Source: Nanobdellota archaeon (GTDB taxonomy: Archaea > Nanobdellota > Nanobdellia > Woesearchaeales > GCA-2686295). Taken from it: a DNA stretch of 38,013 bases. Shown here one piece after another: positions 1,299 through 33,053 of the stretch; position 1 is the stretch's first letter; the number at the start of each line of letters is the position of its first letter. The DNA lies in NCBI GenBank assembly GCA_018817005.1, contig JAHIUF010000010.1, forward strand, positions 1-38,013. Reading direction: 5' to 3'. A program made the position numbers and the translations under genes. The notes under the pieces are model-generated. The model was not told the DNA's origin. It was given only the letters and a program-made list of their open reading frames with translations, and searched no databases.

Positions 1299-3296
1299 TC
1301 AAGGCACGATATAAACCTTTACGTCAAGATATGCAAAGGTGTCTTCAGCATACTGGTGAGTGGGACAGCAAGCCTGGGGAGCATCATCAGATCCAGCCTC
1401 GGGCATGATTAAACAGTTCAGGTCGGTAAAATAATCATTCATGCAATCCCGAAAACGACTCCTTTGGTTTTCATCTTTCAGCTTCTCGCAATCAGAAATA
1501 TCGAATTTACAAGTTTCAGACCTTATTAAATCATAGCAAGGGTTATAATCACGACAAGAACCTTCTCCAGGTGGATAATCAGGATCCCAGTAGTCTCCCA
1601 CCTTGCAGCAGTGCTTGGTATTAATCGGGTCATGCATTGAAGAGACAAAAGCCGGAAGGTCAGAAACACCCTCATCAAAACCTGAACTGCAATAATAAGC
1701 AGGAACAATCCATGTTTCTAAATCATCATCATAAATAGCTCCATCAGTATAATTTCCTTCAACTTTACTTAATCCGCAGGCCTTAGGGCTTTCACCGTGG
1801 CATACAGGGTCAACGCAGTCAGCAAAGTCATCCTCATGAGGGTTGTCGTTTCTGTTGTTCGAACAGTCTTCAGGCATGCCGCAGCACATCTCTGTCGGGT
1901 ACAATCCGCATCTGGCGATGTGCTCGCCGCCGCCCTCTTCCAGACCGAAGTATGAATACATGCAAGTGTATGACTCTGTATTCTTGTAATAATTACTACA
2001 GGCAGAGTATTCACTGTAAGGAACGCTTAACTGCCTTGTATAAACCAAGGTACCAATAGCATCAACATCCTTGCATTTAAAATCGTAAAAATCATTGTCA
2101 GCAACGAATTCTTTACTATCAGAAAATCCACAACCATCAGCGTCACAAGGACAAAGAGGAATGTTAGAAGTATCATAATCATCATTAACATAACAATCAT
2201 CTCTCTTACAAGAATAATTTTCAAGCCTGTAAGTGGTCAAGACCTTACAAATAGTTCCTGCGCGATCACCTGTGAATTTCAAGTATAAACTTAAAGGCAG
2301 ATAAGTAATACTAGGATTAGTAATGTGTCCGCCTGAAAAATCAGAATAAAGACGCATAGACGCGTAGTGTTCATTTATAACGCCTGAACTTTCAACATAA
2401 ATATCACCCACACAACAAACAGGAGTGTAATTTTCACCAGCAGAAGAAATGCTTAAAGGCGGAGCGATATGCGCATTTGCATAAGGAAGAGATGTGTTTA
2501 TCAAAATACCAGTATCAGAGTCAATATAAGAAATGTTTGAAGTCACGTTTGAAATCCTTAAAACCTCAACCTCGCCCTCAGGACATGAAATACCCGAAGC
2601 AAGAGTGCATAAAAGATTTAAGTTCAATTCCTCTTCAATATTAACAGTGACTTTTTTAACAATGCTCATTCGCGGATCGCCTTTATCAGTAACAGTTACA
2701 TTTGCGTAATACGTTCCAGGAACAGAATAATTAATTTCATTCGCAAACCTATTGTCTCTTTCTAAGTCAAAGATTAAATTAACAGTATCATTTCCAAAGT
2801 CCCAATAATACTCCATCCCATCGCCGTCAGGGTCAACAGCTACAACCTCAAAGCCAATTTTTGCATCAACACCGTAACCAGCATCATCAAGAGGGCTTAT
2901 AATGTTAGCTTCTGGCGGGTGATTACTTAAAACACTTATCATCCTTGTTGCAGTGGCTATTGCGCCCTTGCTGTCAGTAACCGTGAATTTAACCTCATAA
3001 TTTCCTGCTTTGTTAAAAATAACCTCTCCTGGATTTTGAATCATAGCAGTTTGAGGAACACAATCAGCACAAAACTCCCAATCATAAAATTTGTATAGAT
3101 TAGATCCACCACTAGCACCACCTTTAAAAGTCAGACTGTCACCAAAGTATATTTCTTGATTAGTCATTGGTTCGGAAATTATTGCTTTTAATTCAGTAGG
3201 GTCAACACCAATATCAATAACAACTCCGCCTCCAATTGCAGCATAAGCCATTGACGAGAGTAGAACAAATATTAATAGCAACAAAGTTTTTTTCAT
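1299..3296 (-). CDS. Secreted Cys-rich protein with PKD-like domains
   Basis: Signal peptide 'MKKTLLLLIFVLLSSMAYA'; PKD-like motifs 'AGNYEVKFTVTDSKG' and 'PGTYYANVTVTDKG', 'YYWDFGN'; about 33 Cys residues. Confidence 0.8.
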   Translation of the reverse strand: MKKTLLLLIFVLLSSMAYAAIGGGVVIDIGVDPTELKAIISEPMTNQEIYFGDSLTFKGGASGGSNLYKFYDWEFCADCVPQTAMIQNPGEVIFNKAGNYEVKFTVTDSKGAIATATRMISVLSNHPPEANIISPLDDAGYGVDAKIGFEVVAVDPDGDGMEYYWDFGNDTVNLIFDLERDNRFANEINYSVPGTYYANVTVTDKGDPRMSIVKKVTVNIEEELNLNLLCTLASGISCPEGEVEVLRISNVTSNISYIDSDTGILINTSLPYANAHIAPPLSISSAGENYTPVCCVGDIYVESSGVINEHYASMRLYSDFSGGHITNPSITYLPLSLYLKFTGDRAGTICKVLTTYRLENYSCKRDDCYVNDDYDTSNIPLCPCDADGCGFSDSKEFVADNDFYDFKCKDVDAIGTLVYTRQLSVPYSEYSACSNYYKNTESYTCMYSYFGLEEGGGEHIARCGLYPTEMCCGMPEDCSNNRNDNPHEDDFADCVDPVCHGESPKACGLSKVEGNYTDGAIYDDDLETWIVPAYYCSSGFDEGVSDLPAFVSSMHDPINTKHCCKVGDYWDPDYPPGEGSCRDYNPCYDLIRSETCKFDISDCEKLKDENQRSRFRDCMNDYFTDLNCLIMPEAGSDDAPQACCPTHQYAEDTFAYLDVKVYIVP

Positions 3297-31637: not shown

Positions 31638-31734
31638 GCTGGGATCGCATAATTCGGTATTGCGCAAGCCTGGAAAAAAAATCCTTGAAAGCTTGTCCCA
31701 TTAGGGATTCTGGGTTCAAATCCCAGTCCCAGCG
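31638..31734 (+). tRNA. tRNA-Ser(GGA) with ~14-nt anticodon-loop intron
   Basis: Acceptor GCTGGGA/TCCCAGC, anticodon stem CAAGC/GCTTG with 21-nt loop 'CTGGAAAAAAAATCCTTGAAA', long variable arm TCCC-ATTA-GGGA, T-arm CTGGG-TTCAAAT-CCCAG, discriminator G. Confidence 0.88.
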
Positions 31735-31934
31735 TATTTCTTATAATTTAGACAGGGATTTTTCAAACGCTCAAAAATATTCTATTTTTGGCGTGCCAAA
31801 AAAACACTTTTTTTGAGCATCCCAGTCCCAGCGTATTTCTTATAATTTAGACAGGGATTTTTCAAACGCTCAAAAATATTCTATTTTTGGCGTGCCAAAA
31901 AAACACTTTTTTTGAGCATCCCAGTCCCAGCGTA
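31722..31934 (+). repeat. 99-bp perfect tandem duplication carrying the tRNA-Ser 3' end and a double-hairpin element, plus third tRNA-end core
   Basis: CCCAGTCCCAGCGTA occurs at 31722, 31821 and 31920; units 31722-31820 and 31821-31919 read identical by eye. Confidence 0.93.
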
Positions 31935-31974
31935 CTTTAAAAACATTTAAATAAGAACATCACAATATAAGAGT

Positions 31975-32271
31975 GTGAAAGCAGTAAATATTCTTATTGG
32001 GCTACTAGTAGGATATGTTTTTACAATGATTCTGGAATTAAACTATAATCTCATATTAAAAAGAACAAAAAAACATCCTGTAATAGTACTAAAAGGATAC
32101 CATATACACCACAGTATATATGGTGCAATCATGTTACCACTAGCACTCATACTCAGTGCACCAATATTACTGGGTGCTGGAGCTGGAATAATAACCAGAC
32201 ACACGCAAGCAGAAAAAAAATTCAAATTTATAGAAAAAGAAGAAAAAGTTGTTTACAAAGAAATTTGCTGA
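31975..32271 (+). CDS. Small membrane protein, 98 aa
   Basis: GTG start; two hydrophobic segments and 'LKGYHIHHSIYGAIMLPLALIL'; TATA-like TTTAAATA upstream. Confidence 0.6.
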   Translation: MKAVNILIGLLVGYVFTMILELNYNLILKRTKKHPVIVLKGYHIHHSIYGAIMLPLALILSAPILLGAGAGIITRHTQAEKKFKFIEKEEKVVYKEIC

Positions 32272-32358
32272 AATTACTTATTCTCAACTTAGATATTCCC
32301 GCATCATAACAATTTAATAACTCATTCTAAGAATTGAACATGAATATTTTTAGTTTAT

Positions 32359-32384
32359 AAAAGATATAATGCCGAGGGGGGGAC
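32359..32384 (-). repeat. Partial duplicate of the tRNA-Met 3' end and its downstream flank
   Basis: 'aaaagatataatgccgagggggga' matches 32920-32945 with one mismatch over 26 nt. Confidence 0.85.
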
Positions 32385-32451
32385 ACTCAAAAATATTTAA
32401 TTTTTGGCGCACCAAAAGACTTTGTCTTTTGAGTATTTGAAAAATTCCCTC
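32381..32451 (-). mobile_element. Double-hairpin element, divergent homolog of the copies at 31754-31820 and 31853-31919
   Basis: Minus strand AGGGAATTTTTCAAATACTCAAAAGACAAAGTCTTTTGGTGCGCCAAAAATTAAATATTTTTGAGTGTCCC aligns with AGGGATTTTTCAAACGCTCAAAAATATTCTATTTTTGGCGTGCCAAAAAAACACTTTTTTTGAGCATCCC. Confidence 0.6.
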
Positions 32452-32553: not shown

Positions 32554-32805
32554 TTATTTAAATTTTTTTTGATTCATATCTATTATTAGAAAAGCAAGTA
32601 TTATTATTAGTAAAATAATTATTGGCCACACACTCATATTTGATTTATGTGTCGTCATATATTCAAGCGTTTTATTAGCATAATCTATTTGTTTATCAAG
32701 ACCTTGTTTGTCTGAATAATAAGACAGAATTGTAAAAATTAAAGTGATAAAAACCATTATGAATGTTAATATTTTTATCCAGTCTTTTTTACTTTTTTTA
32801 ACCAT
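32554..32805 (-). CDS. Small two-TM protein, 83 aa
   Basis: 'ILTFIMVFITLIFTILSYYS' and 'IIILLIIILAFLIIDM'; lies between the two copies of the tRNA-Met 3' end. Confidence 0.55.
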   Translation of the reverse strand: MVKKSKKDWIKILTFIMVFITLIFTILSYYSDKQGLDKQIDYANKTLEYMTTHKSNMSVWPIIILLIIILAFLIIDMNQKKFK

Positions 32806-32930
32806 TCTTAAAAAATTGTTATTTTTAATATTTATAAGTTTTTCTTACATTCAATATTAAAAAACACTCTTTCTCACTCGATAAATTTAAATAAAGCCAA
32901 AATCCCCAAATAAATCACAAAAAGATATAA

Positions 32931-33053
32931 TGCCGAGGAGGGGATTTGAACCCCTGACATCCACGGTGCACCAACTTGATAATCATAGGCTTAATGCCTC
33001 ATCGCTCAAGTGTTTATGAGCGTGGCGCTCTAACCAGTCTAAACTACCTCGGC
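32931..33053 (-). tRNA. tRNA-Met(CAT), elongator-like, with ~48-nt anticodon-loop intron
   Basis: Acceptor GCCGAGG/CCTCGGC, discriminator A, anticodon stem CCACG/CGTGG, loop CTCATAA interrupted; T-arm AGGGG-TTCAAAT-CCCCT. Confidence 0.85.

Follow-up and report, generated by a model that had tools for sequence, protein, structure and literature searches.

Double-hairpin repeats beside duplicated 3' ends of tRNA and 16S rRNA genes in an archaeal lineage, members of a dispersed and probably mobile family

REP sequences carry a tetranucleotide tag. REPINs are inverted doublets of REP sequences, whose mirrored hairpins fold either as one long hairpin or as two, the "clover" form (PMC3116915). Rickettsia palindromic elements (RPEs) are palindromic selfish DNA inserted in protein genes without destroying the protein (PMC6649704), and the double-hairpin elements (DHE) and repetitive hairpin-forming elements (RHE) of fungal and sponge mitochondrial DNA are small double hairpins lying between genes and within rRNA genes (PMC2800124). 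In Caldiarchaeum, a 5' tRNA fragment is found 1.8 kb away from tRNA-Thr together with a recombinase gene, and the gain of introns was tied to mobile DNA; this model is the closest prior idea to the arrangement described here (PMC3293823).

We analyzed a stretch of 38,013 nucleotides (the window), which is contig C2 of a 1.66-Mb archaeal MAG (genome label G000; other genomes are labeled likewise). A first-pass annotation of the window had described tandem double hairpins at tRNA-Ser and a divergent copy at tRNA-Met, each adjoining a duplicate of the tRNA 3' end. When the repeats were recomputed, this description and its coordinates held. The features at tRNA-Ser are as follows.

31638..31734, plus strand: intact tRNA-Ser(GGA) gene with an anticodon-loop intron, including its own 3' end (Rfam RF00005, 45.7 bits)
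31720..31739, plus strand: tRNA-Ser 3' end copy 1, T-loop to trailer, within the functional tRNA (repeat family D3)
31755..31769, plus strand: left arm GGGATTTTTCAAACG of unit 1, pairing with ATCCC of copy 2 as a closing stem and including a T-loop-like TTCAAA
31770..31817, plus strand: double hairpin of unit 1, a palindrome built from a mirrored pair of bulged hairpins
31819..31838, plus strand: tRNA-Ser 3' end copy 2 (repeat comparison)
31869..31916, plus strand: double hairpin of unit 2, the same as in unit 1 (99-bp tandem duplication)
31918..31937, plus strand: tRNA-Ser 3' end copy 3, followed by a differing flank (repeat comparison)

Just as had been claimed, positions 31720-31818 and 31819-31917 are two identical 99-bp units, and the tandem is closed by a third 3'-end core, at 31918-31937; this core shows 95% identity over 20 nt. 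The left arm of unit 1 recurs at tRNA-Ser of genome G002. At tRNA-Met the following features were found.

32931..33053, minus strand: intact tRNA-Met gene with an intron (Rfam RF00005, 51.8 bits)
32920..32944, minus strand: tRNA-Met 3' end plus trailer, copy 1 (repeat comparison)
32554..32805, minus strand: ORF of 83 aa, membrane-type, between the two Met 3'-end copies
32434..32451, minus strand: left arm GAGGGAATTTTTCAAATA of the Met element (sequence and fold)
32386..32433, minus strand: Met double hairpin, divergent relative to the Ser copies, the stem changes being compensated
32359..32383, minus strand: second copy of the tRNA-Met 3' end and trailer, with a single mismatch

The Met hairpin (32383-32436, minus strand) is 76% identical to the Ser copies and adjoins a duplicate, TCCCC(T/C)CCTCGGCATTATATCTTTT, in which 32920-32944 and 32359-32383 differ by one mismatch; the reported duplication of the tRNA-Met 3' end and flank is thereby confirmed as 25 nt. 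The interval at this locus is 555 nt, a spacer about 5 times longer than at the other loci, and holds the 83-aa ORF. The ORF belongs to no convincing family (weak DUF3290 match), has no integrase match and has no relatives that we could find in viral contigs; it may or may not be part of the Met insertion. Both window tRNAs bear introns and were detected by Rfam but missed by ARAGORN. Sub-threshold Rfam matches over the hairpins, to plant microRNA families, were rejected as low-complexity noise.

The element is ~48-54 bp long and consists of a mirrored pair of hairpins. A single base is bulged in each, T in the first hairpin and A in the second, and the mirror-image halves make the whole one long palindrome. 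Oriented with the RNA gene, it runs YRCTCAAAA..TTTTGGYRYGCCAAAAA..TTTTTGAGYRY and then enters the RNA-gene 3' end. As with REPINs, the element is a palindromic, dispersed, apparently non-autonomous pair of mirrored hairpins with many copies and the same two alternative folds, one long hairpin or two (PMC3116915). It is also a small scattered double hairpin like the DHE/RHE, but these are organellar and the accessible text on them reports no duplicated RNA-gene ends (PMC2800124). As single-stranded DNA, the Ser and Met loci fold better than 200 of 200 dinucleotide shuffles (z -5.0 and -3.5, respectively). In the predicted fold of the tRNA-Ser locus, the left arm (GGGAT..) and ATCCC of the following tRNA copy close a three-way junction, and the prediction for tRNA-Met is similar. 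The compensated stem change seen at first pass is real and holds generally: in 82 further distinct sites, which were gathered with a structure model and make the test lean towards structure, 95.4% of pairs were kept, as against at most 78.2% in column shuffles, and 293 cells were double-changed as against at most 92. In DeMMO3_27 (L065, L067, L069, L071, L073), the double hairpin is the tip of a larger foldback repeat present in several copies, GACAGGGGG..CCCC..GGGGACG-hairpins-CATGTC.

The hairpin is far from restricted to the window. In most genomes of the archaeal family, a covariance model (R1), trained on three RNA-gene copies, detected copies by the tens; across the order, which includes Woesearchaeota, 74 of 241 genomes gave strong matches (E<=1e-5, the E-values being rough given the short calibration and AT-rich palindromes). 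The strict hairpin pattern matched in 3/145 genomes and in none of the controls; one sequence-only match, C1:17526 (L006), fits by one stem alone and was judged a chance hit. Among the copies inspected, most are intergenic, whereas others lie within tRNA introns and some lie in frame in ORFs. This scatter contradicts the earlier view of the element as one of tRNA ends. What stands of the proposed non-autonomous element or scar at tRNA ends is a structured, apparently non-autonomous unit with duplicated ends in several tRNAs and genomes; its specificity for tRNA ends does not stand. In AspRS, an in-frame copy encodes a 16-residue extra segment within TLNSKAVGAPKNKFLSE that is absent from solved AspRS, and the peptide pattern of this insert recurs in a VWA protein and others. 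At L063:1501-1554 (contig C84 of G003), a double hairpin with an in-frame stop appears to interrupt an ORF that looks DinD-like by eye.

RPEs are larger than ~48-54 bp. Like them, the element inserts in frame while the protein stays coding (AspRS, the VWA protein and others), and to our knowledge no archaeal counterpart of such protein-borne RPEs has been described before, so that this would be the first. Compared by description, the element differs from RPEs in its size of ~48-54 bp, its archaeal host, its double hairpin and its sites at the tRNA T-loop and the 16S 3' end with duplication. It differs from REPINs in that it is not confined to extragenic space, being found also inside tRNA genes and ORFs, and in the RNA-gene 3'-end duplication at its sites. 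In the distant genomes G038, G104, G184 and G186, near-identical repeats of ~80-220 bp that hold the hairpins occur at unrelated places, which indicates recent mobility. The element is probably one copy-type of a dispersed, probably mobile repeat family that is apparently non-autonomous. We found no report of this hairpin family or of the duplicated 3' ends in open-licence papers.

Copies are enriched at stable RNA genes: by our count, ~20 of ~90 inspected sites are in or beside tRNA/rRNA genes, stretches that we estimate at perhaps 1-2% of these genomes, but the training of R1 on RNA-gene copies biases such counts upward. Because of this bias, we surveyed the tRNA genes directly, which is a fairer test. 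In G000, G001, G002 and G004, 11 of ~105 tRNA genes are followed by another copy of their own 3' end no more than 360 nt away (last 15 nt, 0-3 mismatches, one neighboring-tRNA match removed), whereas on the upstream side there was none except neighboring tRNAs. The loci of tRNA-Met (555 nt), tRNA-Leu (contig end), G002 tRNA-Ser, a degenerate tRNA-Tyr and 16S fall outside this test. Exact TTCRAA-hairpin junctions, searched in 353 genomes of the order, are all in tRNA T-arms of G000 and G002 (controls 0). The link to tRNA is therefore real, whether it reflects a preferred site or a survivor bias. The outcome that the first-pass annotation had named as refuting its view, covariance-model matches scattered with no link to tRNA, was half observed.

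In tRNA genes the insertion point is the T-loop, at 59^60; either the gene is interrupted there or the RNA gene is intact and the hairpin separates it from a further copy of its 3' end. In 16S rRNA it is the last bases of the gene (GGAT^CACC). A fourth copy in this genome lies at the 16S rRNA 3' end on contig C90, between two copies of the gene 3' end (CACCTCCTTTTATTTTTTT), an arrangement absent from the first-pass annotation, so the duplication, contrary to what had been supposed, is not limited to tRNA. The hairpin was found together with 3'-end duplication at tRNA-Ser, Met, Leu, Ile, Gly, a degenerate Tyr and 16S, and as T-loop insertions in tRNA-Gly, Leu, Arg, Phe and Val. G002 has it behind tRNA-Ser and also inside the T-loop of tRNA-Gly(CCC), G001 (same genus as G000) has it behind a tRNA-Ile with duplicated 3' end, and in UBA10192 (Ca. 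Woesearchaeota) it lies within the T-loop of a tRNA-Leu whose remainder is intact. The interrupted tRNA-Gly(CCC) at G002 C33:83433 (L053) has two acceptor-stem mismatches and is perhaps decaying.

A hairpin element lies between the copies at every duplicated locus, but in G004 and at G002-Lys it is of another sequence class; contrary to what the first description implied, the duplication is thus not tied to this one hairpin. The second class, seen behind tRNA genes, reads ACGGTATCGTCCGT..ACCTAGTGTGGCATAAAGCCACAC..GATGCG.AGCATCGCGAC.. and is mostly followed by a duplicated 3' end (G004 C13:49007, C12:52944, C4:187351 and C11:22590; G002 C19:395). Related sequence seems present in T-loop insertions. 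Copy 1 is always fused to the complete RNA gene and copy 2 is the drifting one, and the duplicated lengths are variable, ~15-30 nt. The loci show an intact tRNA first and a fragment second, with direct repeats 15-25 nt long, as would be expected if an integrase had recombined at the T-arm, bringing the tRNA 3' end with the element, which then shrank to a hairpin and an attR; flanking direct repeats of the tRNA 3' end are a feature that they share with tRNA-targeted integrative elements. The 555-nt interval with an ORF at tRNA-Met fits such attL/attR scars, and the published model for tRNA disruption in Caldiarchaeum invokes integration of this kind (PMC3293823), with a tRNA gene, a duplicated fragment and inserted DNA likewise close together. 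Here, however, the fragments are 3' ones, ~100 nt off, with hairpins alone, at many tRNAs and 16S. Intervals are ~57-118 nt nearly everywhere, in three or more genomes, and none contains an integrase, in agreement with the first-pass annotation; unlike in tRNA-targeted integrative elements, neither integrase nor cargo lies between the repeats, the spacers are ~100 nt and the Met ORF has no integrase match. The 3' end found in each unit is that of the RNA gene at which the unit sits, 16S rRNA included, the hairpin occurs away from tRNAs too, and the strict pattern had zero matches in 2.9 million viral contigs. The att-site logic of the first-pass annotation is thus neither needed nor seen, and we consider integration scars improbable. 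Casposon/Cas1-type insertion differs as well, in that, judged by eye, our sites have no fixed-length target-site duplication and the left ends share no terminal repeat across loci.

Empty sites were found in relatives. The tRNA-Met of G001 has neither duplication nor hairpin, which is the comparison of orthologous loci that had been called for, and the 16S spacer of G006 also lacks both while its 16S 3' stretch is 94% identical, indicating that these arrangements in our genome are lineage-specific. Such presence/absence differences between close relatives, together with its absence from the majority of tRNAs and the occurrence of these hairpins in coding and intergenic sequence, weigh against a functional RNA structure 3' of RNA genes, acting in 3' processing, termination or attenuation, with the second 3' end competing with the first. 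We give this idea little chance, even though the stems covary, a tRNA-Thr hairpin with 3'-end copy looks related in G001 and G002, and a tRNA-Ser(TGA) duplication is retained in two species. This last duplication is common to G000 and G001, each copy still matching its acceptor, and could reflect function instead of a scar. The tRNA-Thr loci of the two genera (G001 C33:53925, G002 C3:5516; L155, L190) have a similar single hairpin and a tRNA-Thr 3'-end copy; the copy in G001 fits a neighboring tRNA-Thr better.

These are MAG assemblies, and short tandem repeats might produce such arrangements as artefacts. A 116-bp tandem of double hairpin and 3' end at tRNA-Leu, resembling the one at tRNA-Ser, indeed lies at two contig ends of G000 (C25:4042-4215 and C60:5-62; L081, L082), where it probably interrupted the assembly. 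However, G000, G001, G002, G004 and UBA10192 are independent assemblies with diverged sequences at mid-contig positions, and an artefact is extremely unlikely.

Several tRNAs of the lineage carry T-loop insertions of ~30-190 nt at 59/60 with intact exons. In tRNA-Phe of G003, the double hairpin lies inside a T-loop insertion of ~170 nt. The tRNA for phenylalanine is essential, so this insertion must be spliced if, as usual, the gene is the sole tRNA-Phe. Many tRNAs of the order show the same kind of 59/60 insertion with TTCA/TGAA pairing and intact exons, and standard finders miss or truncate them (G003 L048, ~1350-1760, minus strand, L123 and L124; G113 L037:1306-1410; G002 C18:145569, C34:7845 and C1:24472; G001 C44:24131); one tRNA-Arg(CCU) carries a D-loop insertion too. 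Similar hairpin sequences are common to T-loop insertions and to the spacers at loci with a duplicated end, which makes interrupted and duplicated genes look like alternative states of a single process.

This resemblance keeps alive the explanation that the loci are remnants of T-loop introns, in which the lineage introns at 59/60 hold the hairpins and a duplicated 3' exon restores an uninterrupted tRNA; gain or loss via recombination or cDNA would leave the order exon-exon-trailer-intron remnant-exon. Like hairpin classes are indeed found both in the spacers and in insertions of intact tRNAs (G003 Phe, Arg and Val; G002 Gly, Ala and Lys; G001 Ala), the insertions often end in TGAA, which pairs with TTCA of the T-loop, and copies 1 and 2 both reach the T-rich trailer. 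The pairing was seen by eye at the Phe, Ala, Gly(TCC) and Leu loci but was absent at the double-hairpin loci of the window and at tRNA-Gly(CCC); plain double-hairpin loci without it include tRNA-Gly(CCC), Ser, Met and Ile. Moreover, 16S has an equal arrangement with no evidence of an intron, and no reverse transcriptase is consistently present. We regard intron remnants as an unlikely alternative.

The spacers gave a hint of the mechanism. An inverted copy of the locus's own RNA-gene end was found in the spacer at 7 of 15 duplicated loci (p<=0.01) and at 2 of 89 controls. At 16S a forward copy is followed by an inverted one of 28 nt and then by a forward copy with the hairpin, and at tRNA-Gly(TCC) of G001 the inverted piece retains that gene's own TTCGAA variant; at the G004 and G002-Lys loci, which have other hairpin elements, the inverted copy is missing. 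Read from sequence, these inverted copies suggest duplication by foldback or template switching. Transposition of the HUH type was rejected because the Y1 transposase domain (Y1_Tnp, PF01797) is missing in most carriers: 9 of 14 genomes lack it, and the sole copy in G000 has two stop codons (2 TAG). In this the element is unlike the REPIN/RAYT system. Reverse transcription as a general route was rejected as well, since RVT_1 is missing in G000 and G002. Given no consistent Y1 transposase or reverse transcriptase, no integrase in the spacers and no viral match, we describe the element as REPIN/RPE-like, with membership in neither group.

The best explanation, to which we assign a probability of roughly 0.55, is a dispersed non-autonomous palindromic repeat of REPIN/RPE-like type that lands with a re-copied RNA-gene 3' end. 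The family membership, structure, position, duplication and empty sites are observed; from these patterns we infer transposition and a duplicating step as follows. A hairpin-forming unit would insert and persist where an extra hairpin is tolerated, that is, in intergenic DNA, protein loops, introns and RNA-gene ends, and the survivors in RNA genes are those at the tRNA T-loop 59^60 or within the last 16S bases. Most RNA-gene loci read as an intact gene, the unit, and a second copy of the gene 3' part plus trailer, as if the T-loop-to-trailer stretch had been copied anew during insertion, presumably because the hairpins caused foldback or a template switch. Because the 3' stretch is re-copied, the RNA gene would never be lost. 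The 99-bp tandem at tRNA-Ser would be later slippage or recombination of the repeat.

A bolder and more tentative proposal, which we hold to be possible but doubtful, is that a hairpin-only mobile family lands by preference in T-arms of tRNA genes and at the end of 16S, that it inserts duplicatively and spares its target by re-copying the 3' end, and that the same events give birth to T-loop introns. The origin of tRNA introns at odd positions and of tRNA fragments in Archaea is an old open question, and mobile DNA has been invoked in one published model, for a single locus. In the related genomes studied here, one tRNA position is seen at many loci in intact, interrupted and duplicated states with the same kinds of hairpin, which makes the origin of these introns and fragments testable by strain comparison and RNA sequencing. 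If 3'-end re-copying does generate T-loop introns, these genomes would show tRNA introns and 3' fragments being born.
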